A stretch of DNA of 55,096 nucleotides, from positions 1-55,096 of the forward strand of contig JAGBIJ010000042.1 of NCBI GenBank assembly GCA_017935045.1. Reading direction: 5' to 3'. Source of the DNA: Muribaculaceae bacterium (GTDB lineage: Bacteria > Bacteroidota > Bacteroidia > Bacteroidales > Muribaculaceae). The notes beneath the pieces were generated by a model, which saw nothing but the letters and a program-made list of their open reading frames with translations, did not search any database and was not told where the DNA came from. Made by a program: the position numbers and the translations under genes. Positions 5,133-52,778 of this stretch are shown here, in pieces (the first letter of the stretch is position 1; each line of letters starts with the position of its first letter).

Positions 5133-5149
5133 AAAATCAAATTTTGTTG

Positions 5150-5578: not shown

Positions 5579-5584
5579 ATATAA

Positions 5585-5599: not shown

Positions 5600-5623
5600 G
5601 GTACACGTAAGGATGTTCGGCCT

Positions 5624-5992
5624 TTATCGGATACGGAGCTCTCCGGGAATACGCTGTTGTCTTTGTTCTTCGGTCATGTTGTTATAGTTTTCCAAAATCG
5701 GAGTCAGGTATCTTTTTGATTTGGTAGTGATAAAGACGACTCCGCCTAATCTCGGACTAAAAATTCGCGTAATTGCCGGGTCTTTTGTGACATCGACTTT
5801 TATAATGTCATCAGGCGTGATGTCATTCAGATTCTGAACTTCCACTCCGTCCACGATGTATACCGGAATATTGATTGAATCGCATTGCACGGGGGTGCAG
5901 CAAGCGTTATTTGCGCAGCACTCCTGTCTGGATTCCATGGCATAAACGGATGTGGCTGCAAATATTGCGACTATAATTAGCAACTTCTTCAT
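5624..5992 (-). CDS. Small secreted protein with TonB-plug-like segment
   Basis: A 122-residue protein with a clear signal peptide (MKKLLIIVAIFAATSVYA) and a Cys-rich stretch right after it (CCANNACC, then C at PVQCDS). Residues about 45-85 (IPVYIVDGVEVQNLNDI ... GGVVFITTK) look like the plug module of TonB-dependent receptors or the similar module in some Bacteroidetes regulators, but no barrel follows. The start at 5992 is chosen because it opens the signal peptide; a longer frame to 6037 would overlap the upstream gene. It lies 5 bp after the TfoX-like gene, so the two are probably one transcript. Function unknown. Confidence 0.75.
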   Translation of the reverse strand: MKKLLIIVAIFAATSVYAMESRQECCANNACCTPVQCDSINIPVYIVDGVEVQNLNDITPDDIIKVDVTKDPAITRIFSPRLGGVVFITTKSKRYLTPILENYNNMTEEQRQQRIPGELRIR

Positions 5993-5997
5993 GTCTG

Positions 5998-6312
5998 TTA
6001 TTTCTTTTTTGTTTTTGGATATGGCAGAGCTTGCCAAAGTATTGAGATAACTTCACGCGCTTTTTGTCGGTCTGAAAAGTCAAGTATATATCCCTCTTTG
6101 GCTCCTTCATAAGCGCAACCTGTTTCGGCTCCGGCCATCAGTGGCTCGATGCAATCCAGCTTTTTGATAAAAGCTGTGTTGTCACATGCCGTGATGACAC
6201 ATTTTTCATTTACGTATATGATATATTCGCCCATCATTTTGCGTGGGCGCACTTCGCCAAGAGGCGTGAGGACTTCGCAGATGAACTCAATAAATTCAGT
6301 AGTACATGCCAT
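5998..6312 (-). CDS. TfoX N-terminal-domain protein
   Basis: A 104-residue protein covering a single TfoX_N domain (VRPRKMMGEYIIYVNEKCVITACDNTAFIKKL is characteristic, about residues 22-53). In gamma-proteobacteria the TfoX/Sxy family controls competence genes; short stand-alone domains in Bacteroidetes have no established role. It is cytosolic. ATG at 6312 is well placed for the domain, but the promoter's predicted start site falls at or within a few bases of it, so the message may be leaderless. It is first in a two-gene unit with the secreted protein downstream. Confidence 0.85.
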   Translation of the reverse strand: MACTTEFIEFICEVLTPLGEVRPRKMMGEYIIYVNEKCVITACDNTAFIKKLDCIEPLMAGAETGCAYEGAKEGYILDFSDRQKAREVISILWQALPYPKTKKK

Positions 6313-6347
6313 AACGCAAAATTACGTATATTATGCGTTATGGCAAA
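6307..6347 (-). promoter_or_regulatory. Promoter inside a 12-bp inverted repeat, upstream of the TfoX-like gene
   Basis: The minus-strand -7 box is TAATTTTG (CAAAATTA at 6317-6324) and the -33 box TTTG (CAAA at 6344-6347), 19 bp apart. TGCCATAACGCA (6307-6318) and TGCGTTATGGCA (6334-6345) are perfect inverted repeats that enclose the promoter spacer and include the start codon. This is a plausible operator. Confidence 0.6.
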
Positions 6348-6391
6348 GAAATAAATCAAGAAATATCGGCATCAAAAATTCCAATACTCTC

Positions 6392-7480
6392 TTAGAGCAA
6401 CGGCTTTTGGGGTCTGTTTGTCTTGAGCAGGTGGCAGTGCGTCAGATTGCCATGTGCGTCTCGCAGGTGCATGCCGTTGCCTTCGCAATAGCGCCAGAAC
6501 GAACACGAGGCGCATGTGCCGGTCTTCATCCAGTCTCGGTCTCGGTATTGTCTGTAGCGGTTTTGCCATACGTCCCAGAAGTCATCCTGATAGATATTGC
6601 CCTGGCGATAGTCGGCGCGTATGCTGGGGCAGGCGCCGATACCTCCGTCCAGCAGTACGGAGGCCACGCTTACGCCAGCCTGACATTCAAAGTAGTAATC
6701 CCGGATTTGCCCTTCATAGCCGGCCATGAACCCTTCGCAGCAGAATGAAGCGTGTATGCAGCCTTCCTGCCTGGTGTCGGCTATGAAACGCATCAGGCTC
6801 TCTATCTGCTCTTCGTCCAGATCGAATTCGGGATACGCTGCTGCGCGGCCCGCAGGAAAGATGGTAAACAGACGCCACTTCTTTACGGCGCCCTGGACGA
6901 GCAACTGCTTCAGTTCTCCGAGCTCGGCAAGCGAGCGGCGGTTGACGCATGTCACGACATCGAAATTCAGGTCTTCGGCTTTTGCGGCGCGGCGTATGGC
7001 CGCAAGGGCGCGTCTGAAGGAGGAGGGATGGTTGCGCATCCAGTTGTGCGTCGGCTCCAGACCGTCGAGGCTTATGGTCAGATTATGCAGACCTGCGGCA
7101 CGCAGGCTTTCAAGCCGTCGTTCGTCGAGCAGAAGTCCATTGGTCACTATGCCCCAGGGGAAGCCTCGGTCATACAATTCGCGTCCTACATATTCCAGGT
7201 CGTGACGTACCAGCGGTTCGCCTCCGGTAATCACTATGTTGACCTGATGCGGATTCACATGGGGCAGTAACGAATCGATGACTCGTAAAAAGTCTGCGGC
7301 AGGCATGTCAGGTTGCACCGACGAGCTCTTGCAGTCGCTGCCGCAATGTCGACACCCTAAGTTGCACCGCCACGTACATTCCCAGAACAGCTGCCGGAGC
7401 CTGTGTCCCCTGCGTCTTTCGAGCTTGCGGCTCCGGTTGAGTTCCAGCGCTATCCTCTGCTTCAGAGTGAGCGGCTTCAT
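6392..7480 (-). CDS. Radical SAM/SPASM enzyme of the rSAM/lipoprotein system
   Basis: A 362-residue radical SAM enzyme. The 4Fe-4S/SAM motif is CNLGCRHC (about residues 39-46), followed by GGEPL and a SPASM-type C-terminal half with several cysteines (CQAG, GACPS, CASCSFWRYCEGN, HCHLL) that would bind auxiliary clusters. The sequence and its partner fit the family known as TIGR04133 (rSAM enzyme always paired with a lipoprotein, TIGR04134), whose chemistry is unknown. It starts inside the stop codon of the lipoprotein gene (ATGA, 7477-7480), so the two are translationally coupled. The natural inference is that it modifies the lipoprotein before export, but this is unproven. Confidence 0.9.
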   Translation of the reverse strand: MKPLTLKQRIALELNRSRKLERRRGHRLRQLFWECTWRCNLGCRHCGSDCKSSSVQPDMPAADFLRVIDSLLPHVNPHQVNIVITGGEPLVRHDLEYVGRELYDRGFPWGIVTNGLLLDERRLESLRAAGLHNLTISLDGLEPTHNWMRNHPSSFRRALAAIRRAAKAEDLNFDVVTCVNRRSLAELGELKQLLVQGAVKKWRLFTIFPAGRAAAYPEFDLDEEQIESLMRFIADTRQEGCIHASFCCEGFMAGYEGQIRDYYFECQAGVSVASVLLDGGIGACPSIRADYRQGNIYQDDFWDVWQNRYRQYRDRDWMKTGTCASCSFWRYCEGNGMHLRDAHGNLTHCHLLKTNRPQKPLL

Positions 7481-38591: not shown

Positions 38592-40106
38592 TTATGCCAT
38601 TACTTCTTTTATGGCGAGGGGGAGATGGTCTATGATGTCGGAGGCAGTCATGCCGTATTCTCCCAGTTTGGCGGCGGCCATGTCGCCGGCCAGACCGTGG
38701 ATATATACGCCTACAGTGGCTGCCAGCTCGGGCTTATAGCCTTGCGCTATAAATGAGGTAATCACTCCGGTCAGCACATCGCCGCTTCCGGCGGTGGCCA
38801 TACCCGGATTACCGGTAGAGTTGATATAAACTTTGCCGTCGGGGCGCACGACAGATGTGTAATGCCCTTTCAGCACGATTATGATATTGTAATACTGAGC
38901 CATGTCTATGGCTTTGCGCAGACGCTCCTCGTCGGTGGAATGTTCGCCGAAGAGGCGGTCGAACTCGCCCTTGTGCGGAGTGATTATGCTCATGGTCGGA
39001 ATCATCGACAGCAGGGTAGGGCGCTTGGCTATGCAGTTGAGGGCGTCGGCATCAAGCACCAGCGGCTCGCCTACGTTCTTGACAAGCCCCTCAAGAGCGT
39101 TGACGGTATCGTCATACGTGCCTATGCCCGGGCCTGCGGCCACACCTTTGTGGCGGTGATGCAGACGCATGTCGGTAATGATGCGGTCATTTTTGTCCGG
39201 TTCAAACATAGCCTCGCATACCGACTGCTGTACTATCTCCATGCCGCAGCGGGCCGAGTGTACCGTCACGAGGCCTGCGCCGGACCGCATGGCGGCACGG
39301 GCGCACATGACGGCCGCACCCATCATGCCCATGGAGCCGGCCATGATGATGCACGACCCGAAATCGCGTTTCGCCGCAAACAGCGGGCGCGGCTTGAGCA
39401 CATGTCTCACATTGCGGGCCTCGCACAGATAGAAACTGGCCGGCGTGGAGCGTATCTTCTGCGTATCCTGCTCGATATCGAGTACTTTCCATTCGCCCAC
39501 CATTTCGGCCTGTTCCTCAAAGAAGAAAGCCAGCCGCGGAAAGGAGATGGCCAGTGTCAGACGCGCGTGAATCATGTCGCGGCGGTTGGTCGCCGCGTTC
39601 CATTCGCCGAACATGCCCGACGGCACGTCGATGGAGATGGTATATGCCTTGCTTTCGTTGATATATCTTACCAGCGACATGAAGCCGCCCTGCAGCGGTT
39701 CGCGCAGACCGGAGCCGAAAAGGCCGTCAAGCACTACGTCGCCATCGCTCAGATAGGGAGGCGTGAAGTCGCGGGTTACCTCGGTAAAATCCACGCCGTC
39801 CATAGCGATGAGCCGCTTGCGCTGTTCGGCGCAGTCGTGCGACAGACTGTTCTTCACATTGAAGAGAAATATCTCCACACTCTTGTATCCCTGCTCTATG
39901 AGCATGCGGGCCGCGCCCAGGGCATCGCCTCCGTTGTTGCCCGGGCCGGCGATTACCACTATGCGCTGCGAGGGAAGAAAGCGCGACACTATCTCGCAGC
40001 TTATGGCGTTGGCCGCGCGCTCCATCAGCTCTATAGAGTCTATCTTCTGCGCCTCACAAGTGGCGCGGTCTATATCTTTGATTACGTCAGATGCAAAAAT
40101 CTTCAT
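38592..40106 (-). CDS. nnr: Bifunctional NAD(P)H-hydrate epimerase/dehydratase
   Basis: A 504-residue metabolite-repair enzyme. The N-terminal YjeF_N domain (AGPGNNGGDALGAARMLIEQG, about 52-72) epimerises damaged NAD(P)HX. The C-terminal ADP-dependent dehydratase domain (AAGPGIGTYDD, ITPHKGEFDRLFG, STGNPGMATAGSGDVLTGVI) restores NAD(P)H. Both active-site regions look intact and the length is normal for the fused form. First gene of an operon with DUF4831, DUF4105 and a secreted protein, from a full-consensus promoter. Confidence 0.96.
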   Translation of the reverse strand: MKIFASDVIKDIDRATCEAQKIDSIELMERAANAISCEIVSRFLPSQRIVVIAGPGNNGGDALGAARMLIEQGYKSVEIFLFNVKNSLSHDCAEQRKRLIAMDGVDFTEVTRDFTPPYLSDGDVVLDGLFGSGLREPLQGGFMSLVRYINESKAYTISIDVPSGMFGEWNAATNRRDMIHARLTLAISFPRLAFFFEEQAEMVGEWKVLDIEQDTQKIRSTPASFYLCEARNVRHVLKPRPLFAAKRDFGSCIIMAGSMGMMGAAVMCARAAMRSGAGLVTVHSARCGMEIVQQSVCEAMFEPDKNDRIITDMRLHHRHKGVAAGPGIGTYDDTVNALEGLVKNVGEPLVLDADALNCIAKRPTLLSMIPTMSIITPHKGEFDRLFGEHSTDEERLRKAIDMAQYYNIIIVLKGHYTSVVRPDGKVYINSTGNPGMATAGSGDVLTGVITSFIAQGYKPELAATVGVYIHGLAGDMAAAKLGEYGMTASDIIDHLPLAIKEVMA

Positions 40107-40519: not shown

Positions 40520-40551
40520 TTTGGTTGTTCGCCTAAAGATTGTTAAATTAG
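40520..40551 (+). promoter_or_regulatory. Candidate promoter of the RiPP operon
   Basis: TTTG (40520-40523) and TAAATTAG (40544-40551; one mismatch to TAnnTTTG) are 20 bp apart, leaving a leader of about 60 nt before the ATG at 40620. The leader holds a tiny frame (40588-40605, MKVKY) of unknown meaning. Confidence 0.5.
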
Positions 40552-40619
40552 TGCCGTGCTTAGTATGATGTAAGGTAAAAAATCCTTATGAAAGTTAAAT
40601 ATTGATTTGCCCGAATAAT

Positions 40620-41804
40620 ATGAAAGTAAGCAAGTATATAAGCAGTATACGCATATCAGGAGATATGTGGTTGTTTTATGGAGCCTTAAATGACGCTTTT
40701 GTTTGTGTCTCGACAAGTTCGCTCAAATCAAATGATAAAGAATCGGTATTGGATGTTTCAGGTAGGTTAAGGGATGATTTTATTAAGGCAGGGATTCTTG
40801 TGGATTCTAATTATGATGAAATTTCAGAGTTAGGAAAAATAATTAAGCAAGTAGATGAAGATGACGCGCTTTTGCAATTAACAGTTAATCCGACAATTAA
40901 TTGCAATTTCAAATGCTGGTATTGCTATGAGGATCATGTGACAGGATCTAAAATGGAGGAAAATACCAGGAAAGCCGTTGTCTTATATGTTCAGAACTAT
41001 CTCCGGAATCATGATACTGCCAAAAAGTTTGCGCTGTCATTTTTTGGAGGCGAGCCGCTGCTTTATTTCGACAATGTTGTGAAGCCACTTGTGAAAGAGT
41101 GTTCTGTTGTTTGCTCCGCACTCGGAGTTGACATGAGCGTGCATTTCACAACCAACGGATATCTCCTGACTGAAAACATTATCGGCTTTCTGAAGAATTA
41201 TAATTGTAGCTTTCAGATTACTTTAGACGGAGCAAAGGATTGCCACGACCGAGTCCGTTTCCCTAAGGCTGGCATTGGCAGCTACGATAAAATATTGTCT
41301 AATATTGAATTGTCGGTAGCTAACGAATGTTTAGCAATTGTCAGAATTAATTACACCACGGAGAATATTTGTTCGTTAGGGAGAATTATTGATGACTTAA
41401 AATTTTTATCCGACGAAGAAAAGAAATATTTACGGGTCGATTTTCAACGTGTCTGGCAAGATATGTCTCCTGAGCGAGAAGGTAATATAGCCGATTTAAT
41501 CTCGGAGTATCTTTTGCAATGCGTTAACAATGGAATCAACGCGACATCTCATTATGCGTTGGATATGGTTCGTTCCTCATGCTACGGAGATAAGAAGAAT
41601 TATCTGTTGGTGAATTTCAATGGAGACTTATACAAGTGTACCGCTCGGAATTTTGCCAAGACTCCGGCGATTGGGAAATTACGCTTAGATGGCACAGCTG
41701 CCTGGAATGAAGATATTCGCAAAATAAGAGATAACATCAAGTTGACTAAAGAGGTCTGCCGGGAATGTAAAATAGCGCCTTTATGCGCAGGTGGATGCAG
41801 GTAA
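40620..41804 (+). CDS. Radical SAM/SPASM peptide maturase, ending at an in-frame TAA
   Basis: Radical SAM enzymes of this type cross-link or epimerise residues in a ribosomal peptide. The cluster motif is CNFKCWYC (Cys 95, 99, 102), followed by SFFGGEPLLYF; the C-terminal SPASM region shows SSCYGDKKNY, DLYKCTARN and CRECKIAPLCAGGCR. The frame stops at TAA 41802-41804, right after GGCR, where the family continues with a Gln-rich segment and a last Cys. Translating onward gives 53 more family-like residues to 41966. The truncated product is 394 residues, the full one about 448. The start is ATG 40620, with a TTG at 40602 as alternative. First gene of the RiPP cluster. Confidence 0.88.
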   Translation: MKVSKYISSIRISGDMWLFYGALNDAFVCVSTSSLKSNDKESVLDVSGRLRDDFIKAGILVDSNYDEISELGKIIKQVDEDDALLQLTVNPTINCNFKCWYCYEDHVTGSKMEENTRKAVVLYVQNYLRNHDTAKKFALSFFGGEPLLYFDNVVKPLVKECSVVCSALGVDMSVHFTTNGYLLTENIIGFLKNYNCSFQITLDGAKDCHDRVRFPKAGIGSYDKILSNIELSVANECLAIVRINYTTENICSLGRIIDDLKFLSDEEKKYLRVDFQRVWQDMSPEREGNIADLISEYLLQCVNNGINATSHYALDMVRSSCYGDKKNYLLVNFNGDLYKCTARNFAKTPAIGKLRLDGTAAWNEDIRKIRDNIKLTKEVCRECKIAPLCAGGCR

Positions 41805-41966
41805 AAGGCGTTGGAAAACATCAATAGCGATGGTTGCATGTATCATTATGATGAGGCGGCAAAAGATCAATTAGTTCTTGATCGGTTCGAATATCGGTAT
41901 TTAGCTCATAAAATGCAACATTTTTATAAGTGCCATTCGAGAGGCAATGGTCTCGGAAAATTGTAA
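41802..41966 (+). pseudogene. C-terminal remainder of the maturase beyond the stop
   Basis: In the same frame as the maturase, this stretch reads KALENINSDGCMYHYDEAA and on to a second stop (41964-41966) with no other interruption. ALEN ... DGC right after CAGGCR is how SPASM maturases usually end, and the Cys in SDGC would be a ligand of an auxiliary cluster. A single C-to-T change (CAA to TAA) explains the break. It ends 9 bp before the precursor gene, a normal operon gap. Confidence 0.78.
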
Positions 41967-41975
41967 TTTAATCTT

Positions 41976-42269
41976 ATGAGTATGAACCAAATTAAAAGAA
42001 TCCACAGTTATGTGGCCTCCTTGATGGAGGAGAGCCGCTTAAGTGAGCGGCAAGAATCGTTATTGCTGTTATCACAAACAGATGCGGTAGGAGGTGATAA
42101 TACAGGCATCGCTGGGTGCTATAACTATGTGGCCGCGTCGTGCGCGAATCAAACTAATAATAAATGCAGTAATTATGGCGTTTGTGGCAATGCCATTAAT
42201 GAATACGAGTGCAGAAACTTCGAGAAGCCCAACACTAACATCATAGGGTCAGCCTGCGGTGTTGTGTAA
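41976..42269 (+). CDS. Candidate Cys-rich RiPP precursor with double-glycine leader
   Basis: A 97-residue peptide (ATG 41976, or 41982). The first 40 residues are a hydrophilic helical leader (IKRIHSYVASLMEESRLSER ... SLLLLSQTDAVGG) ending at Gly39-Gly40, the cut site expected for a C39 peptidase. The remaining 57 residues form a likely core with six cysteines (48, 56, 64, 70, 79, 94), many Asn/Gly/Tyr, and the ending IIGSACGVV. It lies between the radical SAM maturase and the receptor/exporter genes, which process and export such peptides. I do not recognise the core in any described family. The product might be an antimicrobial, signal or metal-binding peptide (inference). Confidence 0.82.
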   Translation: MSMNQIKRIHSYVASLMEESRLSERQESLLLLSQTDAVGGDNTGIAGCYNYVAASCANQTNNKCSNYGVCGNAINEYECRNFEKPNTNIIGSACGVV

Positions 42270-42331
42270 CTTGCCTTAGGGCTGCCACGCTTCCGCTGCA
42301 TGGCGGATGAATAGCCCGGTAAATTGAATTC

Positions 42332-42363
42332 AACCTGGTGTCACGATAGCGTGATACCAGGTT
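42332..42363 (+). promoter_or_regulatory. Strong intercistronic hairpin in the RiPP operon
   Basis: AACCTGGTGTCACG (42332-42345) and CGTGATACCAGGTT (42350-42363) form a 14-bp stem with one G-U pair and a 4-nt loop. No T-run follows. Placed between precursor and receptor, it may block 3' exonucleases or partly end transcription, giving more precursor message than receptor and exporter message. Confidence 0.75.
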
Positions 42364-42418
42364 ATGGCAAACTGGTGCGGGTATCTAATATCAACAGGAT
42401 TAATTGGTTATAGCTTAT

Positions 42419-44761
42419 ATGAAGATATTGCGGTTAGCGAAATCAGGAACAACGTCGGCAATGATGATGTGGGCGGCAATGGGATTCGCCGATGTGGCAG
42501 GAACGGTAAAGGACACAGACGGCAACCCTCTTCAGGGATGTGTAATTACCTTATTAGCGCCTGCTGACACTGCTTTCGTAGCATCTGACCTCACTGATAT
42601 CGCCGGGAGATTTAATGTTGAAGCGCCCGCCGGGCAATATATTGTCAATGCGACTGCTCTCGGCCATAAATCAGAGACGCTCTATTATACGGATAACGGG
42701 GAGCTTTCAATCGTACTTGAAGGTGTAGCCTCAGACCTCGGCGAAGTGACGGTAACGGCTTCAGCTCCCGGCAGTCTGACCCGGGAGTCTAATAAATACA
42801 TCTATATTCCGGATGCACTGCCGGGAGAAGTGAAGACGGCTAAAGATGTGCTGAAAGCTGTGCCATTGGTTACCACCACTGAGAATGATGGATTGGAAGT
42901 CCTGGGCAAGGGCAGCTCGCTGCTGTACATAAATGGTAAACCGCCGCGCATGGGTCAGGCTGCGGCTTTCGCTATGCTTCAGACCGTGCCTCCTGAGAAT
43001 ATCAAGCGGGTCGAGATTATAACTAATCCCGGGAATATGGTCGATTCCGGATTTACCGGTGGGATAGTCAATGTCATTATGAGTGAGCCGGATCAGGGAT
43101 TAATGGGAGCGCTGAATGCAATGTGGAGGTCATCAAGCAATGATGCCGCCGGCAATGTAGTGTATCCAACAATATTTTTAGGCTATGCTCACGGCAAATT
43201 CAACGCATCCTTGATGGCAGGCTATCATTATTGCAATGTTGATGAGCATACCACCTCGCGGTATGACTATAAGAATGAAGGGCGTTATGTAGAGAACGAT
43301 ACGCATCGTAATACTATTGGCAATAGCGTTAATCTCGGTATGACAGCCACATACGATTTTACCCGCGTAAGCAATCTGGGAATTTCGTTTGCCGTATCTG
43401 CTTCAGACGAGCGCGGCCCTACTTCATCTGCATCTATTGACTCCCGTGACCGCAAGACCACGATGTTTGCCAATTCGTGGCGCGAGCCTTTTACCAGGCC
43501 ATACTTCTCCGGCATGGTTTTCTACACGCTCCAGACCGATGGCTGCGGCTCAGGAATCGATCTGACAGCTTGGTACGCTAACAACAAAACAAAGCGTAAA
43601 ACGAATTATCTTGAGAATGAGGCCTTGACTGGCATGGAGGAGCTTGAGACCGAGAGCGAAAGCACGCTTGCAGATTTTAAATACATCCATCGCTTTCCGC
43701 AGGGCGGCAGTCTGACTTCCGGTTTGCGTTTCAACTATACGCGCACAGATAAAACAGAGACCCGCGACGGTATACCGGACAGCTTCTTGTATGATGATTA
43801 CCATGGCAGCGTGTATGCCGACTATTCGCGCTCATGGAGCAGCCTGTTCAGCATGTCGGCAGGTCTAAGCGGGGAGTATGCCCATGCTAAAGGAGTACAG
43901 CGCGTTACCGATGAGACTTTCCGCCGCAATAACTGGATTTTGTCGCCCAACGCGAGTATAACCTTCCGCTTGCCTAAAGCTGCGCAAAGTTTCTCGCTTG
44001 AATACCAGCAGTATGTACATCGTCCTTCTGTGCGTGACATGAATCCGTTCAGGATTGAGACTTCTCCGACGACCTACATTGCCGGCAACCCTTCATTGAA
44101 AAACAGTCAGAGTTATTCTCTGTCGCTGCGTTATTCTCTACTTCGGAAATTTCATACTGTAGCGCGCTTCTCAAAAAGCGACAACCTGATGTCCAACTAT
44201 ACCTTTACCGATGGGGATGGTAAAACCGCCACATCGATTGCCAACCTGGGTAATGACCGCTGTTTTGGCTTTGAGGCTGGATTTTACGATACTTTCTTTA
44301 ATTGTATGCGCGTAAATCTCACTCTTAACGCTTACTATCGAAATGTCCACGCTTCAATCAATGGCTCGGATGTAGGATATTCAGGCTGGAATGTCAGACA
44401 GAGTACAAATCTTACCTTTTTAATAGCGCCATGGGACGCGTCGGTATCCGTTTGGAACGTGTTATGGTCTCCGACTAAAAATATAACAACTCGTTATGGC
44501 GCGAGGGAGTTGCTTAATATCAGCGTGACGAAATATCTGTTCAATGCCATGTCCCTTACATTCAGCGTAAACAATGTTACAAATTACCGTTCGCATATTT
44601 CCTACAGCAACCCCGATTACGCTTACTGTATTGATCAGAAGAATCTCGGAACGAGTTTTGAGTTGAAACTCACATACGTATTCGGCAAGCGTAGTGTCAA
44701 CGCCATACCCGAGCGCAGCAGCTCCGTTGGAGGCGATATTGCCCCAGGGGTATCCCGGTAA
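42419..44761 (+). CDS. TonB-type outer-membrane receptor (carboxypeptidase-regulatory/plug/barrel)
   Basis: A 780-residue outer-membrane beta-barrel. After a signal-like start (MKILRLAKSGTTSAMMMWAA) come a CarboxypepD_reg domain (VAGTVKDTDGNPLQGCVITLL, to about 105), a plug-like domain (KDVLKAVPLVTTTENDGLEVLGKGSSLLYINGKPP; NIKRVEIITNPGN; GIVNVIM) and a long barrel of the OMP_b-brl_3 type (repeated aromatic-ended strands; ends KLTYVFGKRSV plus a ~20-residue tail). It lies in the RiPP operon between precursor and exporter and probably carries the mature peptide through the outer membrane or takes up its ligand; direction cannot be told. The start at 42419 is preferred to a TTG at 42404. Confidence 0.88.
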   Translation: MKILRLAKSGTTSAMMMWAAMGFADVAGTVKDTDGNPLQGCVITLLAPADTAFVASDLTDIAGRFNVEAPAGQYIVNATALGHKSETLYYTDNGELSIVLEGVASDLGEVTVTASAPGSLTRESNKYIYIPDALPGEVKTAKDVLKAVPLVTTTENDGLEVLGKGSSLLYINGKPPRMGQAAAFAMLQTVPPENIKRVEIITNPGNMVDSGFTGGIVNVIMSEPDQGLMGALNAMWRSSSNDAAGNVVYPTIFLGYAHGKFNASLMAGYHYCNVDEHTTSRYDYKNEGRYVENDTHRNTIGNSVNLGMTATYDFTRVSNLGISFAVSASDERGPTSSASIDSRDRKTTMFANSWREPFTRPYFSGMVFYTLQTDGCGSGIDLTAWYANNKTKRKTNYLENEALTGMEELETESESTLADFKYIHRFPQGGSLTSGLRFNYTRTDKTETRDGIPDSFLYDDYHGSVYADYSRSWSSLFSMSAGLSGEYAHAKGVQRVTDETFRRNNWILSPNASITFRLPKAAQSFSLEYQQYVHRPSVRDMNPFRIETSPTTYIAGNPSLKNSQSYSLSLRYSLLRKFHTVARFSKSDNLMSNYTFTDGDGKTATSIANLGNDRCFGFEAGFYDTFFNCMRVNLTLNAYYRNVHASINGSDVGYSGWNVRQSTNLTFLIAPWDASVSVWNVLWSPTKNITTRYGARELLNISVTKYLFNAMSLTFSVNNVTNYRSHISYSNPDYAYCIDQKNLGTSFELKLTYVFGKRSVNAIPERSSSVGGDIAPGVSR

Positions 44762-44788
44762 GAGGCGGCTTGAAATGCCAGGCTTAGC

Positions 44789-46981
44789 ATGAAAAGAAAA
44801 ATCATAGCATATCAGCAACTTGAGCATTCCGATTGCGGCATTGTCTGCGTTCGTATCCTGCTGAGATATTGGGGCAGATGTATGTCGCTCAATGAGATAA
44901 GGGCTATATCTGACATGGGTCGTGATGGATTGTCGATTAAAGGGATTTCTGATACGCTTGGAAAAGCCGATGTCGATTCAATAGCTGTACGCTTGCCAAT
45001 GTCCGAGCTATGCAGAATGCCTTTGCCGGCTATTCTATTTTGGCGGCAAAGCCACTTTGTCGTGCTATATAAAGTTTCATCAGATGGGAAGCGGTTTTAT
45101 GTAGCGGATCCATCGCAAGGCAAAATGGTCTTTACCGAGCAGGAAATGCGGTTGTATTGGCTTGCGGAAGCGGATAGAGGTATCGCTTTGTTGTGCGAGC
45201 CATCAGATAATTTCATTGCTGATAAGAAAGCCAAAGGGGATAGGCAATTAGTTAAATTATTTAATTTGGTTAAGTCTACGCTGAGTCAACATAGGAGATG
45301 CTTCTTCACTGTAGTATTGTTCACTCTTTGTTGCCTGATTGTAGATATAGCGCTGCCGTTTCTTTTTCAGAGGACTATCGATGAGGGTGTCGCAACTCAT
45401 AATATCAGTCTGATCTGGATGCTTGTTTCTGCGCAGCTTATGTTCTTCCTCGGAAATTTCGTTTCGCAGAAGATCGTTGATTGGGTTCTGACGCATTTAG
45501 GGCTGAAAGTCGGGCTCGATATGATGAATGAATATTTGTGCAAGCTTTTGTCTCGTCCAATGGATTTTTTTGCAAGGAAAGTCAATTCAGATCTAATTCA
45601 GAAAGCGGAAGACCAAATGAGGATAAAAGACTTTTTAGTAGGAATGCCTAATACAATCTTTTTCATGTGCTTGAACATTGCGGTATTCTCAAGTCTGCTT
45701 ATTTATTTCAATATTTACATTTACTTGTTTTTCATGATATGCACAGGCGCTGGTTTCTTATGGATCGGCCTGTTTATGCGCAAAAGAAAAGCGATAGACT
45801 ATACTTACACTTCATGTATCGCGGAAAACAGAAACAATTTATATGAATTGATAGGTGGAGTGGCCGAAATCAAGATTAACAATGCGGATGAAATAAAAGT
45901 ATCAGTATGGAATAAGTTGCAAAACAGAATCAACGACCTTGCCAAGAAGCGGTATTATATACAATTATGGATGGCAAGCGGCACTACACTGCTTTTTCGG
46001 CTTAGAGAGATTGCTGTAATCGGCATTTGTGCTACATCTGTAGTTTACGGCAACATGACCATAGGTGTAATGATGACCGTGAGCTATATAATAGGGCGTT
46101 TAGCTTCGCCTTTTGATGATATTCTCGACACCATTGCAAAGATTCAGGACGCATCAGTGTCAATGGAGCGGGTCGAGGAGATAATGCACGCGGCGCTTGA
46201 CGATGATGCAGATGATGCGCATATTCCAGTGAAAGATATTGACATAACAGATGTCTCGTTCAAATATCCGGGGTCACATTCTCCTTTTGTGCTTACGGAC
46301 ATTAATTTAACAATCCCTTTAGGGTCAACTATAGCGTTGGTGGGCCCAAGCGGCTGCGGCAAATCGACTCTCATCAAAATTATAATGGACTTATTCCAGC
46401 CGGCAAGCGGCGCGGTAAAAGTCGGTGGTATAGTATTATCTGCGTTAAATCAAAAATCATGGCAGAAGAATTGCGGCATTGTCATGCAGGAAGGAACTGT
46501 TTTCACAGGGACATTATTGTCTAACATCGCTATGTCTGATGAAATACCTGATACGGATAAAGCTATCGCAGCTGTCCGTTTAGCTTGTCTGTATGATTTT
46601 ATACAAGGGCTGCCGATGGGTCTGTATACTAAAATCGGTGTGTCGGGGATCGAGCTTAGCGGCGGACAGAAACAGAGGCTGTTGATAGCACGTGCATTAT
46701 ATAGAAATCCGGATCTGCTGATTCTTGATGAAGCGACATCTTCCTTAGACGCGATGAATGAGGCGCAAATCGTAAGGAATCTAAAAAGCCGCAGCAACGG
46801 CAAGACTGTGATAATAGCGGCTCACAGATTGTCGACTATAATGCACGCAGATACGATTGTTTACATGAATGAAGGCAGGATACTGGAAATTGGCAGCCAT
46901 AATTGCCTGATGAGTCTTAACGGTGCTTACAGCCGGTTGTTCAGAGGACAAATTGCTTATGCGGAGCAACCGTTATATTAG
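44789..46981 (+). CDS. Peptidase-containing ABC exporter (C39 domain)
   Basis: A 730-residue inner-membrane protein that would cut the leader at the double glycine and export the core. N-terminal C39 peptidase: catalytic Cys16 (LEHSDCGIVC), His89 (SHFVVLY) and Asp107 (VADPSQGK) are all present, so it should be active. Then a six-helix membrane domain (about 160-440) and a nucleotide-binding domain with Walker A GPSGCGKST, signature LSGGQKQRLLIARAL, Walker B LLILDEATSSLD and the H-loop AAHRLST. It is the last gene of the RiPP operon. The substrate is most likely the 97-residue Cys-rich peptide at 41976. Confidence 0.95.
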   Translation: MKRKIIAYQQLEHSDCGIVCVRILLRYWGRCMSLNEIRAISDMGRDGLSIKGISDTLGKADVDSIAVRLPMSELCRMPLPAILFWRQSHFVVLYKVSSDGKRFYVADPSQGKMVFTEQEMRLYWLAEADRGIALLCEPSDNFIADKKAKGDRQLVKLFNLVKSTLSQHRRCFFTVVLFTLCCLIVDIALPFLFQRTIDEGVATHNISLIWMLVSAQLMFFLGNFVSQKIVDWVLTHLGLKVGLDMMNEYLCKLLSRPMDFFARKVNSDLIQKAEDQMRIKDFLVGMPNTIFFMCLNIAVFSSLLIYFNIYIYLFFMICTGAGFLWIGLFMRKRKAIDYTYTSCIAENRNNLYELIGGVAEIKINNADEIKVSVWNKLQNRINDLAKKRYYIQLWMASGTTLLFRLREIAVIGICATSVVYGNMTIGVMMTVSYIIGRLASPFDDILDTIAKIQDASVSMERVEEIMHAALDDDADDAHIPVKDIDITDVSFKYPGSHSPFVLTDINLTIPLGSTIALVGPSGCGKSTLIKIIMDLFQPASGAVKVGGIVLSALNQKSWQKNCGIVMQEGTVFTGTLLSNIAMSDEIPDTDKAIAAVRLACLYDFIQGLPMGLYTKIGVSGIELSGGQKQRLLIARALYRNPDLLILDEATSSLDAMNEAQIVRNLKSRSNGKTVIIAAHRLSTIMHADTIVYMNEGRILEIGSHNCLMSLNGAYSRLFRGQIAYAEQPLY

Positions 46982-47127: not shown

Positions 47128-48318
47128 ATGAAGTATCTTAACACAGGATTTTTCAAGACTATAGCCGGCTCTGTAAGCCTGGCCGCCCTGCTGTGTTTAG
47201 GCGCTTGCGGCGCCCATGATCATGACCACGCGGAGCATGAAGGCGAGCATACCGACAAAGAGAAAGCCGAAGACCACGACCATGAGGGAGTGGTGGTCTT
47301 CACTGCCGAGCAGGCCAAAGCTTGCGGAGTGGAGACAGCCGAGGTGCGCCCGGGAGAGTTTACCGGTGTCATAAGGACTACCGGCGAGATAGTGGCCGCT
47401 CCCGGCGACGAACGTACCGTATCGGCCAAGGCTGCGGGCATAGTCAGTTTCGCCGGGGGCGAGATGACACCTGGCGCCCCTGTCGGCGCGGGCCAGACGC
47501 TCTTCCGCATCTCGGCGCGGGGTGTGACCACTACTGACAACAATGCCCCGCTGCGGGCCACGCTGGCCAGTGCCGAGGCACGCTTGAAGCGGGCCGACGG
47601 ACTCTTGGCCGACAAGCTGATTACGCAGACCGAATACGATTTGATTAAGGCCGAGGTCGCTGCCGCCCGTGCCGCCCTTGCTACCCCGCAGGCCACCGTG
47701 ACCAGCGGCGGCGACGTGGCCGCATCGCCTATCTCCGGATATATAGCGGAGTGTCTGGTACGCCCCGGCGACTATATCGAGGTGGGAGCGCCGCTGGCTG
47801 TGGTAACCACCAACCGGCAGCTGCAGCTTCGCGCCGATGTGCCTCAGCGATACAGCGCCGACCTCTCCTCGATACGCGGCGCCAACATAGTGGTTCCCGC
47901 CGCCGACGAGCGCCGCATACGTCTGGCTGACTACGGAAGCCGGGTGGTAAGTGTCGGCAAGGGCAGCAACAGTACTGCTTCGCTCTATATCCCGGTAACT
48001 ATAGAGTTCAACAATCCCGGCGGCTTGACCGCCGGAATGCCGGTGGAGGCATATCTGCTTACTGACCGCATGCCGGGCGTGATAACCGTGCCGCGCGAGG
48101 CTCTGACCGAGGAGGAAGGCATGTATTTCGTATATGTGGAGCAAAGCCCCGAGCATTTCCGTAAGCAGCGGGTGGATGTAGGCGCCACAGACGGCGTCAG
48201 CGCCCAGATTACCTCCGGTCTGAAGGAGGGCGAGCGTATAGTGGTCAAGGGAGCGACAATGCTCAAGCTGGCGGCCAATTCCGGCAAGGCTCCTCAGGGA
48301 CATAACCATAATCATTGA
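47128..48318 (+). CDS. RND efflux periplasmic adaptor, His-rich (CzcB/CusB-like)
   Basis: A 396-residue membrane-fusion protein. The N-terminus has a lipobox-type end of the signal (LCLGACGAHDHDH) followed by a His/Glu/Asp-rich stretch (HDHDHAEHEGEHTDK ... EDHDHEG) and the C-terminus ends GHNHNH, suggesting metal capture. Between are barrel-sandwich and beta-barrel domains (VSFAGGEMTPGAPVGAGQTLFRIS; AARAALATP; SGYIAECLVRPGDYIEVGAPL) with a short helical hairpin. It joins the inner-membrane pump to the outer-membrane channel. The metal could be Zn/Co/Cd or Cu; it is not decided by sequence alone. The next gene begins within a few bases of its stop. Confidence 0.92.
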   Translation: MKYLNTGFFKTIAGSVSLAALLCLGACGAHDHDHAEHEGEHTDKEKAEDHDHEGVVVFTAEQAKACGVETAEVRPGEFTGVIRTTGEIVAAPGDERTVSAKAAGIVSFAGGEMTPGAPVGAGQTLFRISARGVTTTDNNAPLRATLASAEARLKRADGLLADKLITQTEYDLIKAEVAAARAALATPQATVTSGGDVAASPISGYIAECLVRPGDYIEVGAPLAVVTTNRQLQLRADVPQRYSADLSSIRGANIVVPAADERRIRLADYGSRVVSVGKGSNSTASLYIPVTIEFNNPGGLTAGMPVEAYLLTDRMPGVITVPREALTEEEGMYFVYVEQSPEHFRKQRVDVGATDGVSAQITSGLKEGERIVVKGATMLKLAANSGKAPQGHNHNH

Positions 48319-48323
48319 CAGAT

Positions 48324-51300
48324 ATGCTTGACTCGATTATACGGTTCAGCCTGCACAACCGCCTGACCATCATGCTGGCCGCTGTGCTTATCGCTGTAGG
48401 AGGCTGCTATGTGGCATCGCGCATGGAAGCCGATGTTTTTCCGGATCTCAACGCCCCGACGGTGGCTGTTATGACCGAGGCGCCAGGTATGGCGGCCGAG
48501 GAGGTGGAGCAGACCGTGACATACCCGGTGGAGACGGCTTTGAACGGAGCTGCCGGCGTGCGCCGTGTGCGCTCGTCAAGCTCTATGGGTTTTTCCTGCG
48601 TGTGGGTGGAATTTGATTGGGATACCGATATATATCATGCGCGCCAGACTGTATCGGAGCGTCTGGCCACCGTCAGCGGCAAGCTGCCGCAGGGTGCGGA
48701 GACTCCGGTGCTGGGAGCCCAGTCGTCTATTCTGGGCGAGGTGCTGTTTGTCGGTCTTACCGGACCTGCCGGCGGCTCCATGCAGGAGCTGCGTACGCTC
48801 GCTGACCGCGACATAGCGCCCAGACTGCTGTCAGTGCCGGGTGTCTCACAGGTCAATGTGATAGGCGGCGATGTCAAGGAATATCAGATATTGCTGCGTC
48901 CCGAGCGCATGGCGAAGTGGGGCGTGAGTCTTGGCGACGTGGCAACCGCCACAGAGGGGATGACCCGCAATTCCACCGGTGGAGTGGCATACGATTACGG
49001 CAACGAATATATCATACGCGGTCTGGCCGCCACCACGGATGTGGATCAGATCAGTTCCGCCGTAGTCAGGCTCAACGAGGCCGGCGAGCCGGTGCTTCTG
49101 CGCGACATAGCCGATGTGCAGGTGGGCAATCAGATACCGCAGACAGGCGTGGCTTCGGTAGACGGCGAGCCCTCGGTGCTTCTGACCGTCACGAAGCAGC
49201 ATGGGGTCGGCACCATAGAGCTGACCGAGCGTCTGGAGGCGGCTCTCTCTGACATAAAGGCAGGTCTGCCTGCCGACGTCAAGGTATCGACAGACCTGTA
49301 CCGCCAGCGCGATTTCATAGACGCTTCGGTCAACAATATAAAGAAAAGTCTTGTCGAGGGAGCCGTGCTGGTGGCCATCATACTTTTCGTCTTCCTGATG
49401 AATCCGCGCACCACGCTCATATCCCTTGTGACTATCCCGCTGTCACTGCTTGTCACAATACTTGTGCTGCGGCTTATGAATCTCTCCATCAATACGATGA
49501 GTATCGGCGGTATCGCCATAGCCATCGGCTCGCTGGTGGACGACGCGATAGTCGATGTGGAGAACGTCTACAAGCGGCTGCGCCATAACCGCACTCTCCC
49601 GGAAGGGGAGCGCCGCAGGGTGCTCGACGTGGTATTCGAGGCATCGCGCGAGGTGCGTATGCCTATACTCAACTCCACTCTTATAATTGTGGTCAGCTTC
49701 GTGCCGCTCTTCTTCCTGCAGGGGATGGAGGGACGCATGCTGATACCCCTGGGCATAGCTTTCATAACATCGCTTTTCGCTTCCACTCTTGTGGCACTCA
49801 CGCTGACACCGGTTCTGTGTTCGCTTCTGCTGAGCAAGCGCGAAGTCAAGGAGCAGGAGCCTAAGATTGTAGTCTGGCTCAAGCGCGGATATCGCACTGT
49901 GCTGGAAAAGGCTCTGCGCCACAAAAGGGTGGTGCTGGGCGCCACGGGCGCGCTGCTTGTGGTGGCTTTGGCTCTGTTTTTCATGCAGGGACGGGACTTC
50001 CTGCCCCCCTTCAACGAAGGATCGTTTACCATCAACGTCAGCACTCTGCCGGGCGTCGCGCTGGAGCAGAGCGACTCCATAGGCCGGCGTGCCGAGCGCA
50101 TATTGCTGACGGTGCCCGAGATAAAGCGGGTAGCCCGCAAGACCGGACGCGCCGAGCTTGACGAGCATGCCCTCGGCACCAATACCTCCGAAATCGAAGC
50201 CCCGTATATATCCGAGGGGCGTGGCAAGGAAGAAATAGCAGAGGAGATACGCCACAAACTTAGTGTGCTGCCCGGCGTGAATATCGAGATCGGGCAGCCC
50301 ATCTCCCACCGTATCGACGCCATGCTCAGCGGCTCTCAGAGCAATATCGCCATCAAGATTTTCGGCCCTGACCTGCATGAGCTGATTCATCTGGGCAATG
50401 AGGTAAAGGAGGCGATAGAGGGTGTCCCGGGACTTGAGGACGTGAATGTCGAGCAGCTTACCGACTGTCCGCAGATCAACATCACACCCCGTCCGGGCAT
50501 GCTGGCCCGCTACGGCATCGGTATGCCGGAGTTCAATCGGTTTGTGAGCATGGCTCTCGGAGGTGTGCAGGTCAGCGAGGTGCGCGAGGGAAACTCCGTC
50601 TATGCCCTTACGGTCAAGGTGCGCCCTGACAACCGCGACGCGCTTGAGGAGATAGGCGCGCTGACCCTGGACGCTGCCGACGGCACGAAGGTGCCTCTTG
50701 AGACAGTGGCCGAAGTAAAGTCTACCTCTGGGCCCGGCAGCGTGAGCCGCGAGAATGTGAGCCGCCGCCTTACGGTCAGTGCCAACGTCTCAGGCCGTGA
50801 CCTGCGCGGAGCCGTGGACGATGTCAAGAAGCTTGTGGCCGGACGCGTCTCGCTGCCGCCGGGCTATCATATCAGCTACGGCGGCCAGTTTGAAAGCGAG
50901 GAAGCGGCCTCGCGCACTCTGCTGCTTACGAGCCTGTTCTCCATTCTCGCCATATATCTGCTGCTCTTCAATCAGTTCCGCGACGCACGTCAGAGCGCGG
51001 TCATCATGCTCAATCTGCCTCTGGCCCTGATAGGCGGCGTCTTCGCCATATCGCTGACTGACGGTGTGGTCAGTATTCCGGCCATAATCGGATTCATATC
51101 GCTGTTCGGCATAGCCACGCGCAACGGTATGCTGCTGGTAGACCGTTATAACGTACTTGTGGGCGAGGGCCTGACACCGCGCGAGGCCGTAGTCCGCGGT
51201 TCGGTCGACCGTCTGAATCCGATTCTAATGACAGCTCTGACCTCCGCGTTGGCCCTGATACCTCTGGCGGCAGGCAGCGGAGAGCCTGGAAACGAGATAC

Positions 51301-51425
51301 AGAGTCCCATGGCCAAAGTAATACTCGGCGGCCTGATTTCCGCAACCCTGCTCAACGGCTTCATCATTCCTGTCATATACCTGCTTTGGGGTAGCCGCAG
51401 GCACGGAAAGACCGAGGAAAATTAA
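48324..51425 (+). CDS. Heavy-metal RND efflux pump (CzcA/CusA family)
   Basis: A 1033-residue inner-membrane pump with the repeated six-helix RND plan. It begins MLDSIIRFSLHNRLTIMLAA; has FPDLNAPTVAVMTEAPGMAAEEVEQTVTYPVE, typical of the heavy-metal branch; and the membrane-embedded acidic motif IGSLVDDAIVDVENVYKRL in helix 4. The two large periplasmic loops are complete and the C-terminal helices are intact (FISLFGIATRNGMLLVDRY). It exports metal ions using the proton gradient. ATG 48324 follows the adaptor stop by 6 bp; a TTG at 48315 would overlap it. Confidence 0.94.
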   Translation: MLDSIIRFSLHNRLTIMLAAVLIAVGGCYVASRMEADVFPDLNAPTVAVMTEAPGMAAEEVEQTVTYPVETALNGAAGVRRVRSSSSMGFSCVWVEFDWDTDIYHARQTVSERLATVSGKLPQGAETPVLGAQSSILGEVLFVGLTGPAGGSMQELRTLADRDIAPRLLSVPGVSQVNVIGGDVKEYQILLRPERMAKWGVSLGDVATATEGMTRNSTGGVAYDYGNEYIIRGLAATTDVDQISSAVVRLNEAGEPVLLRDIADVQVGNQIPQTGVASVDGEPSVLLTVTKQHGVGTIELTERLEAALSDIKAGLPADVKVSTDLYRQRDFIDASVNNIKKSLVEGAVLVAIILFVFLMNPRTTLISLVTIPLSLLVTILVLRLMNLSINTMSIGGIAIAIGSLVDDAIVDVENVYKRLRHNRTLPEGERRRVLDVVFEASREVRMPILNSTLIIVVSFVPLFFLQGMEGRMLIPLGIAFITSLFASTLVALTLTPVLCSLLLSKREVKEQEPKIVVWLKRGYRTVLEKALRHKRVVLGATGALLVVALALFFMQGRDFLPPFNEGSFTINVSTLPGVALEQSDSIGRRAERILLTVPEIKRVARKTGRAELDEHALGTNTSEIEAPYISEGRGKEEIAEEIRHKLSVLPGVNIEIGQPISHRIDAMLSGSQSNIAIKIFGPDLHELIHLGNEVKEAIEGVPGLEDVNVEQLTDCPQINITPRPGMLARYGIGMPEFNRFVSMALGGVQVSEVREGNSVYALTVKVRPDNRDALEEIGALTLDAADGTKVPLETVAEVKSTSGPGSVSRENVSRRLTVSANVSGRDLRGAVDDVKKLVAGRVSLPPGYHISYGGQFESEEAASRTLLLTSLFSILAIYLLLFNQFRDARQSAVIMLNLPLALIGGVFAISLTDGVVSIPAIIGFISLFGIATRNGMLLVDRYNVLVGEGLTPREAVVRGSVDRLNPILMTALTSALALIPLAAGSGEPGNEIQSPMAKVILGGLISATLLNGFIIPVIYLLWGSRRHGKTEEN

Positions 51426-51433
51426 TGTTGAAA

Positions 51434-51493
51434 GGGTAGGGTTTCGTACGCCGATACTCTGAAAAGAGTATTTTTACGCCGAGAGTCCTACCC
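51434..51493 (+). terminator. Nested hairpins and terminator after the RND pump
   Basis: ATACTCT, a GAAA loop and AGAGTAT (51454-51471) followed by TTTTT form a compact terminator. It is nested inside longer arms GGGTAGG (51434-51440) and CCTACCC (51487-51493). If the outer arms pair the inner hairpin may still form, so the region could be a simple terminator or a leader that controls the TolC-like gene downstream. Confidence 0.72.
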
Positions 51494-51509
51494 GATTCAG
51501 ATTATTTAT

Positions 51510-51517
51510 TACTTTTG
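51510..51517 (+). promoter_or_regulatory. -7 box of the TolC-like gene
   Basis: TACTTTTG fits TAnnTTTG. No TTTG is present 19-20 bp upstream. With the terminator before it, the channel gene is likely transcribed separately from the pump, with a 60-nt leader to ATG 51582. Confidence 0.5.
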
Positions 51518-51581
51518 CATGACCTTTTCCGGCGCTTTCCGGTTAAGATATTATAGTGTAACCACGATTCATCAGTCATAC

Positions 51582-52778
51582 ATGAGAATTATCCGCAGAC
51601 TCAAGACCATACTTCCGGCCGTCGCCCTCGCCGTAGCCGGGACTGCCTCCGGCCAGTCGGTATTCCCTGAACAGCAGGCTGTCATACAGAAAAACAATCT
51701 CAACCTCAAGGCTCAAGGCGCTGAGTGCGCCGTGACACATGCTGACAATATGACCGGCCTCAATCTCGCCGATCCCGAGGTGGCTGTCAGCTATATGTTC
51801 GGACAGCCCAGCGACGTGCCCAACAAGACTAATATATCTGTTACCCAGTCGTTTGATTTCGCTACCCTTTCTGGAGCGAAGCGCCGGGTGGCCGAGGCAG
51901 ACAATGCTTTGAGCAGCGCGCAGCTGGAAGTAGAAAGACAGTCGTTCGCGCTCTTGGTGGAGAACGCGCTGATCAATTATGTATATCAGGTCAGGCTCTG
52001 CGCCGAGCTGGAAAATCAGCTTGCCGTGCTGCGCAAGCTTCATGACTATGCCGACAAAGGTCTGGCCAAAGGAACGATCACTCAGTTGGATTACAATAAG
52101 ATAGAACTCTCCATGCTGAAGATGGAAAATGATCTGGCCGAAGCGCGCCAGGAGGCCGGAGCCCAGCGCCTTGAGCTGTATGCCCTGAACGGCGGCGAGC
52201 CTTTCGCGCTGCCTGAGACATGGCCTGCAGCCGGACTTCCCGCCTCGTTTGACGACTGGCTTAAGCAGACCGAGCGGAGCAACGCCTCTCTGAAATTGCT
52301 GCAGACCGGCATAGTTCGCAGCGCCCGCGAGGTGGAGTTGCGCAAGAAGCAGGGACTGCCGGAGTTTTCCGTAGGCTATACCAATGAGCTTATAAAGAAT
52401 AGCAACTACCACGGCGTGGCTATCGGTTTCTCGCTGCCGCTGTGGAGCAACGCCGGACGCGTGAAGAGCGCTCGCAGCGCCGAGACTGCCGCCCGTTTGC
52501 GGGCGGAGTCGATGACCGAGGAATACGGCTCCCGCAAGCGCTCCGAATATGAACGCGCCCGCATGCTGGGCGAGACGTCGCGCCGCTACGCCGCCTTCAG
52601 CCAGCGCATCGACCGGCAGAACTACGCATATCTGAAGAAGGCGTACGACGCCGGCACCATCACGGTATTTGAATACATACAGGAGCAGGAGAGTTTCTTC
52701 GAACACGCCGTCAGCTCCCTGACGGCGGAGCGCGACTATCAGCTCGCCCGCGCCGCCCTCTACGCCCCGACGTTCTGA
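51582..52778 (+). CDS. TolC-like outer-membrane efflux channel (CzcC/CusC-like)
   Basis: A 398-residue protein with a signal peptide (MRIIRRLKTILPAVALAVAG) and the TolC two-repeat pattern of long amphipathic helices alternating with short strands: VAEADNALSSAQLEVERQSFALLVENALINYVYQVRLC; ADKGLAKGTITQLDYNKIELSMLKMENDLAEARQE; VGYTNELIKNSNYHGVAIGFSLPLW; KKAYDAGTITVFEYIQEQESFFEHAV. GxITxxxY is typical of CzcC-type channels. It forms the outer-membrane exit of the metal pump. The start at 51582 opens the signal peptide. Confidence 0.88.
   Translation: MRIIRRLKTILPAVALAVAGTASGQSVFPEQQAVIQKNNLNLKAQGAECAVTHADNMTGLNLADPEVAVSYMFGQPSDVPNKTNISVTQSFDFATLSGAKRRVAEADNALSSAQLEVERQSFALLVENALINYVYQVRLCAELENQLAVLRKLHDYADKGLAKGTITQLDYNKIELSMLKMENDLAEARQEAGAQRLELYALNGGEPFALPETWPAAGLPASFDDWLKQTERSNASLKLLQTGIVRSAREVELRKKQGLPEFSVGYTNELIKNSNYHGVAIGFSLPLWSNAGRVKSARSAETAARLRAESMTEEYGSRKRSEYERARMLGETSRRYAAFSQRIDRQNYAYLKKAYDAGTITVFEYIQEQESFFEHAVSSLTAERDYQLARAALYAPTF

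Follow-up and report, generated by a model that had tools for sequence, protein, structure and literature searches.

Several gene clusters for ribosomally synthesized and post-translationally modified peptides (RiPPs) have been described from Bacteroidales. The itf cluster of Bacteroides thetaiotaomicron keeps a radical SAM enzyme, a C39 ABC exporter, a TonB-dependent transporter, and a small precursor together (PMC11002830, drawn on here in part, as are the other reports cited). Among the Bacteroidales biosynthetic gene clusters (BGCs) of PMC10352776, BGC6-9 combine a C39 exporter with an outer-membrane protein and have no adaptor, and BGC1 combines a lone enzyme of the radical SAM type with a C39 exporter. 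The subject here is a locus of comparable layout at 40602-46981 of the window, meaning the whole stretch of 55,096 nucleotides that was analysed (Muribaculaceae bacterium, assembly GCA_017935045.1, contig JAGBIJ010000042.1, positions 1 to 55,096). On its + strand lie four genes, the first for a radical SAM enzyme and the second for a peptide of 97 residues, followed by those for a barrel protein of the outer membrane and for a C39 ABC exporter. They belong to a RiPP family that spans the Bacteroidota, in which, probably, the maturase modifies a core patterned in Cys and Asn, the C39 exporter trims and exports it, and the barrel serves it at the outer membrane.

The itf cluster also has a YcaO, of which the window cluster has none, and its enzyme joins Trp to Ile through a carbon-carbon bond in a precursor with an Ile-Thr-Phe motif, whereas the window core is patterned in Cys and Asn (PMC11002830). 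Unlike the window, BGC6-8 carry YcaO, BGC9 carries LanM, and BGC2 an adaptor; BGC1 and BGC2 were set beside the window family by description and not by precursor sequence (PMC10352776). Ranthipeptides, including CteB/thermocellin, PapB/freyrasin, and a streptococcal Cys-Asn peptide (PMC11002830), share with the window family a Cys-rich core and seven SPASM Cys columns; CteB is nearest to the window maturase among solved structures and the PapB model is among its best matches, but all listed models score far below cut-off, and the window has a Bacteroidota leader, the Asn pattern, and a barrel gene in the cluster. A first-pass annotation, made by a model from the letters of the window, had suggested that, with a dedicated TonB-type receptor in the operon, the combination could be a new class. 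That suggestion is not supported: the gene combination is not new, being in print for itf (PMC11002830), and the pairing of a C39 exporter with an outer-membrane protein in the absence of an adaptor is described for BGC6-9 (PMC10352776).

The annotation had also placed four neighbouring genes of one direction in a segment richer in AT than its flanks, as was found: guanine-cytosine (GC) content is 0.40-0.49 inside the cluster segment versus about 0.54-0.60 in the adjoining flanks. Its start at 40520 needs correcting, as the maturase open reading frame (ORF) begins at 40602 (TTG) or 40620 (ATG) instead. The four genes would form one transcript, with the following features.

40620-41804, + strand: radical SAM/SPASM peptide maturase, shortened, 394 residues from ATG, with an alternative start TTG at 40602 (PF04055, TIGR04463, identity to relatives)
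41802-41804, + strand: TAA in frame in the SPASM region of the maturase (the sequence itself, frame lengths of relatives, and the affected Cys column, 99/102)
41808-41966, + strand: open frame behind the stop, resembling the maturase C-terminus (a profile built from the C-termini of relatives gives 31 bits; no Pfam match)
41976-42095, + strand: precursor leader, 40 residues, ending in Gly-Gly (conservation of I9 and G39 at 90% or more in the alignment)
42096-42269, + strand: precursor core, 57 residues with six Cys, stop codon included (conserved Cys/Asn columns, Asn placement around Cys)
42332-42363, + strand: hairpin between the precursor and outer-membrane genes (14-nucleotide arms, 93% complementary)
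42419-44761, + strand: outer-membrane protein resembling TonB-dependent transporters (PF14905 and PF13620; PF07715 below cut-off)
44789-46981, + strand: C39 peptidase ABC exporter, 730 residues (PF03412, PF00664, and PF00005 above cut-off; catalytic residues)

The precursor carries much of the argument. It has 97 residues, with Gly-Gly at residues 39-40 and a core of 57 residues in which six Cys are spaced 8, 8, 6, 9, and 15, exactly as the annotation had counted. The spacing, which it had called irregular, is in fact a family pattern: in 20 precursors the core spacings are 6-8, 6-9, 6-7, and 8-11 (mostly 9), the last spacing, where a sixth Cys is present, is 8-17 (mostly 13-17), and the core of one relative (L045) has spacing identical to that of the window. 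Homologous clusters with aligned precursors, which the annotation had advised seeking, were found. Across 21 aligned precursors, C56, C64, C70, and C79 are kept in 21/21 and C48 in 20/21, two Asn columns are invariant, and in the leader Gly39 and Ile9 are at least 90% conserved. These precursors were picked by eye, most of them from Gly-Gly peptides beside maturases that had passed a minimum of three Cys, so the presence of Cys is partly by construction and their placement is not. A leader conserved by itself had been named beforehand as speaking against a RiPP; instead, the columns conserved best include those of the core Cys. A small leader-core precursor thus adjoins a modifying enzyme, with conserved positions in both of its parts, as is general for RiPPs.

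Asn is placed around these Cys in a marked way. In the window clade, Asn stands four residues before Cys in 60 of 121 cases and two residues after it in 62 of 121, where shuffling gives expectations of 17.9 and 18.7 (0/500 shuffles; about 3.3-fold), and at five residues after Cys in 38, with 17.3 expected. The same two positions are the highest for Asn in 104 other cores from 70 loci, with 155/503 at -4 and 138/503 at +2 against expectations of 58.1 and 61.3 (0/500 shuffles; 2.3-2.7-fold), and -3 is close behind (136, expected 59.8). Those 104 precursors come from 70 of 81 loci and were selected under a rule that asks for at least three Cys behind Gly-Gly, which makes their Cys richness a matter of construction but not their Asn placement. 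A chance pattern was rejected on the aligned Cys/Asn columns, these shuffles, and a strand control for Gly-Gly peptides given below. An EGF-like domain in the precursor was likewise rejected (Pfam E 0.47; 11.2 bits, cut-off 21.5). NCBIfam returned 0 families for the window precursor at E≤1, and among nine related precursors the GG-Bacteroidales model TIGR04149 gave one match, of 11.7 bits against a cut-off of 25.

The family is widely spread. Within the genus, a maturase relative at E≤1e-20 occurs in 51/111 genomes, and a scan of one genome per species matched the pattern in 246 stretches, 211 of which encode a maturase relative. The best 80 of these 211, together with 40 regions around matches within the genus, were examined further; those 80 include Muribaculaceae, Bacteroides, Prevotellaceae, Chryseobacterium, Flavobacterium, Sphingobacterium, Pedobacter, Mucilaginibacter, Chitinophaga, and others, with one on a contig labelled Beijerinckiaceae. 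The 121 sources (L034-L153 and the window) were reduced to 102 loci, window included, by removing 15 repeats of L034-L053 contigs, the near-identical L077, L081, and L088, and L098, for which an overlapping frame had been chosen as ORF; the near-identical pairs L100/L106, L130/L139, L141/L146, and L145/L149 were retained. In the maturase tree the window falls in a clade of 30 (support 0.97), from gut Bacteroidales going by record names, and groups there with L086, L035, and L110 (support 0.94), its position within that group having support of 0.07.

The gene set recurs with the maturase. In the 67 loci with at least 4.5 kb on each side (window included), the maturase strand carries a barrel gene in 60, an exporter in 58, and both in 54, and on the opposite strand, as a control, a barrel gene was found in 3/102 loci and an exporter in 1/102. 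A Gly-Gly peptide with at least three Cys lies on the maturase strand in 84/102 loci and on the other strand in 3/102. Because the set recurs beside related maturases and the Gly-Gly Cys peptides sit on the maturase strand, the set is beyond chance, and with the conservation of the core Cys this supports the annotation's reading of the locus as a RiPP system. Gene order varies: the barrel gene is often ahead of the maturase outside the genus and behind it in most loci of the genus. Clustering of the flanks of the 102 loci gave one clearly recurrent extra gene, in 18/102, for a lipoprotein-like protein with weak TPR matches; it lies mostly upstream of the maturase (e.g., 893-2776 in L058) and is perhaps regulatory. 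Every other flank cluster is confined to at most 7/102 loci.

A search with the precursor profile matched 29/397 genomes of the family, with internal stops in some matches, including the leader of the L041 precursor. It also led to 16 further loci, 10 of which have a maturase match (one a fragment) and three of which are masked or at a contig edge. Two further kinds of precursor were seen beside the subject of this report. In L054-L073, of the same genus, related maturases accompany very different Cys precursors, with GCGC-type repeats (L062) or CPGN motifs (L058, L063), and in L101, L126, L144, and L150 from three to at least five tandem precursors with differing cores stand ahead of one maturase.

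The maturase belongs clearly to the radical SAM enzymes. The annotation's assignment of a radical SAM/SPASM maturase stands for the radical SAM domain (PF04055, 52.8 bits, cut-off 29.5), with the CX3CX2C cysteines kept in 102/102 loci; the SPASM part matches only below cut-off (16.8 bits versus 21.5). Identity to 18 relatives is 35-43%. What the annotation overlooked is the in-frame TAA at 41802-41804, which ends the protein after 394 residues from ATG, with relatives' frames mostly 417-503 residues long. Beyond it the reading frame is open up to 41966, and this piece, searched without the rest, aligns over 34 residues with the C-termini of other maturases (31 bits, E 8e-12 when it was the only sequence searched). 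The family has seven SPASM Cys columns; in the window copy the seventh, which is Cys in 99/102 maturases, falls behind the stop, so that the seven do not stand within a single open frame. Loss of this last SPASM Cys to the premature stop probably impairs the window copy, unless the stop arose as an error of assembly. The genome of the window has a single maturase match at E≤1e-20, the one in the cluster; among the relatives there are maturases with an intact frame.

Named families describe this enzyme loosely. Its best NCBIfam maturase match, TIGR04463, reaches 160.5 bits against a cut-off of 525, followed by CefB (NF038107; 146 versus 600) and geopeptide (TIGR04280; 141.2 versus 400). All 19 maturases scanned, window included, match these three at E≤1e-10, and the window protein is matched over nearly its full length yet far below the cut-offs. 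Membership in them was not found for the window protein; it is truncated, yet the best E-values of its relatives are similar in magnitude. The match to the PapB model (4e-36) is far below cut-off, as is that to a QhpD-type model. A named NCBIfam maturase or precursor family was therefore rejected on scores far below cut-off, with E-values only for the relatives, and because all listed models are far below cut-off the bond type cannot be read from family membership. Among solved structures, 5wgg/5why is nearest (E 1.7e-28). 5WGG is CteB, and QhpD, CteB, and Tte1186 have seven SPASM Cys, the same number as the columns of the maturase family (PMC10352776). CteB makes Cys-Thr links and the streptococcal enzyme Cys-Asn links, between sulphur and the beta carbon (PMC11002830). 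With CteB as the nearest solved structure and a streptococcal enzyme making Cys-Asn links, Cys-to-Asn thioethers would be the first guess for the window family; the placement of Asn around Cys suggests an acceptor for a thioether from sulphur to a carbon other than the alpha carbon, and no more.

The exporter frame is intact. Its C39 domain scores 88.6 bits with PF03412 (cut-off 22), and Q10, C16, H89, and D107 are each conserved in 79/79 aligned exporters, which bears out the catalytic set the annotation had reported; Walker A and SGGQ are present too, and the protein is thus a C39 peptidase-containing ABC exporter with both its Q, C, H, and D residues and its ABC transporter domains. In a plasmid search with the exporter, all matches among those listed were below 60% identity.

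The barrel protein, whose ORF opens at TTG 42404 with ATG 42419 the likelier start, matches OMP_b-brl_3 (PF14905, 155.4 bits) and CarboxypepD_reg (PF13620, 42 bits) above cut-off and Plug (PF07715, 20.5 bits) below its cut-off of 23.9. It shares the order of CarboxypepD_reg, plug, and barrel with Oar of Myxococcus xanthus, a candidate outer-membrane exporter that differs from it in being 300-400 residues longer than is typical and in serving a protease (PMC6434023). Oar is needed for secretion of PopC; in E. coli this secretion also required the Ton system, and an M. xanthus mutant in linked Ton genes still secreted PopC (PMC6434023). Proteins with pfam14905 or TonB links also occur beside graspetide genes, with a predicted export role (PMC8939145). 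Because the low-GC cluster holds no adaptor or TolC gene, the barrel is most likely the exit of the peptide. Genes for an RND adaptor, a pump, and a TolC-like protein do follow the exporter at 47128-52778 on the + strand, in high-GC DNA; the adaptor at 47128 is above cut-off (TIGR01730, 138.1 bits), the TolC-like gene is below, and the pump gene is large and RND-like. No adaptor recurs beside the loci: 55 flanking proteins of 220-520 residues were gathered from 35 of 53 complete loci and 49 of them scanned, and the seven families common to at least two of the 49 lack a membrane-fusion protein, though 25 of 76 families were listed and single or divergent adaptors could be missed. Proteins of about 700 residues lie between maturase and exporter in L034, L040, and L052; they have no Pfam match at E 0.01, and that of L034 scores 96 bits with the barrel hidden Markov model.

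Put together, the proposed mechanism would run as follows. The maturase would bind the precursor and work on a repeated core pattern of about N-x-G-x-C-x-N followed by C-x-x-S/T-x-N. Cys sulphur would most likely be joined to nearby residues, with Asn the prime candidate, as thioethers of the ranthipeptide type. The C39 exporter would then cleave after Gly-Gly and carry the core over the inner membrane, and the barrel, resembling a TonB-dependent transporter, would act on this peptide in the outer membrane, where it most likely provides the way out. As a default guess, the peptide would serve in competition with related bacteria. A bolder version is doubtful, namely that of an unnamed, phylum-wide RiPP class in which each Cys is tied to Asn in NxxxC/CxN repeats and the TonB-dependent transporter is the outward exit of a C39 exporter free of adaptor and TolC.

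Several observations weigh against this mechanism. The window maturase is itself shortened by a stop, the listed NCBIfam models (25 of the 69 matching it) are all far below cut-off, and Pfam found no leader-binding domain in it. No outer-membrane gene was detected in 7/67 loci and no exporter nearby in 9/67, although L040, counted among those lacking a barrel, has a protein aligning to the barrel profile (hhalign 96.9%). By the rule of Gly-Gly and at least three Cys, 18/102 loci have no precursor; several of these have one by profile (e.g., L035, L041, L043, L051). The annotation had held that precursor homologues apart from a maturase or exporter would count against it, and against the 10 of 16 profile-derived loci with a maturase stand three (L174, L175, L186) where none is nearby; of these, L174 retains the barrel gene and L186 has an exporter-like ORF. 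Maturase distances show only a moderate correlation with those of the barrel (rho 0.57 for loci outside the genus and 0.21 within it) and with those of the exporter (0.64 and 0.25), and shared descent confounds such correlations; over all loci two of the three pairs are undefined because exporters are fragmentary. Outside the window clade the Asn pattern is looser, with enrichment in the 104 other cores also at -5, -3, -1, +4, and +5. TonB-dependent transporters usually import. Passage of PopC through the Oar barrel itself is not demonstrated in the account used here, and because the Oar-like domain order is dominant in Bacteroidetes at large, whatever the function, that order is by itself no pointer to export (PMC6434023).

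That most TonB-dependent transporters are importers also favours a different account, in which the peptide binds metal and is taken back up in loaded form through the barrel, as in siderophore or copper-chelator systems. The Cys-rich core would suit this, as would the RND efflux adaptor gene at 47128, which the metal-efflux model TIGR00999 matches below cut-off. The pump gene, however, lies in high-GC DNA and its cluster comprises the window and three other loci, and no importer partner is common to the loci, the TPR-like lipoprotein being the sole flank cluster in more than 7/102 (the clusters were not individually annotated); metal import is accordingly improbable. It is also improbable that the precursor is an unmodified, disulphide-bonded bacteriocin resembling the bacteroidetocins, with the radical SAM enzyme acting elsewhere. 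C39 exporters do accompany unmodified bacteroidetocins as well (PMC10352776), but the Gly-Gly Cys peptides keep to the maturase strand in 84/102 loci (themselves picked by maturase), Asn placement around Cys is conserved, and there are cores with an odd number of Cys, e.g., in L034 and L044.

A third possibility concerns the window copy and is compatible with the RiPP mechanism preferred for the family: with a chance somewhat below even, the copy is a functionless, decaying remnant gained by transfer. Its maturase frame holds the TAA, which none of the other intact-frame maturases compared has, the segment is AT-rich, and the gene order on the cluster side of the gene at 38592-40106 is unlike that of four relatives. 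Against decay, the precursor, barrel, and exporter frames are intact with the C39 residues kept, and a single stop may stem from faulty assembly, the genome being a draft in 62 contigs (2.22 Mb). As for transfer, two relatives (L190 and L191) retain the order of the 38592-40106 gene and the next two on the left flank (by eye, from ORF lists), and on the cluster side of that gene all four relatives compared, L190-L193, have other genes. The drop in GC and the changed gene order would fit an insertion, without proving it. No synteny was found on the right flank, homologues of the 47128 and 38592 genes being on different contigs in the relatives that have both.

No paper on the Cys-Asn family was found among the listed matches in openly licensed literature, judged from titles and abstract openings, and the parts of PMC12181424 and PMC10885120 drawn on hold nothing about it. 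The family may already appear in the radical SAM RiPP atlas that reports itf or in the precursor figure of PMC10352776. How Bacteroidales RiPPs cross the outer membrane in the adaptor-less BGC6-9 is left open in PMC10352776, as far as the part used goes. The trio of maturase, barrel, and C39 exporter in named Chitinophaga, Sphingobacterium, Pedobacter, and Chryseobacterium strains makes this question testable in culturable organisms. Should the barrel prove to export the peptide, outward transport by the TonB-dependent transporters, a very large family, would have a case besides Oar, the one found in the literature consulted, and the Cys-Asn pattern is a concrete prediction for the chemistry.

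Some smaller features complete the window. The region 42270-42420 behind the precursor folds at -51.7 kcal/mol (z -2.74, for this locus only), and the hairpin at 42332-42363 within it might keep precursor mRNA in excess. A promoter pattern of Bacteroidota (TTG, 19 bases, TAnnTTTG) has two exact matches in the window, none of them near the cluster. Elsewhere, a second radical SAM/SPASM gene at 6392-7480 (- strand) matches TIGR04133 above cut-off (550.5 bits versus 425), and beside it, at 5624-5992 (- strand), lies a small, Cys-containing, secreted-looking protein, a segment of which matches a SusC/RagA model below cut-off. Positions 1-6500 form another low-GC stretch (0.35-0.40), which encodes at 3828-5132 a protein resembling Fic (60.1 bits against a cut-off of 550).

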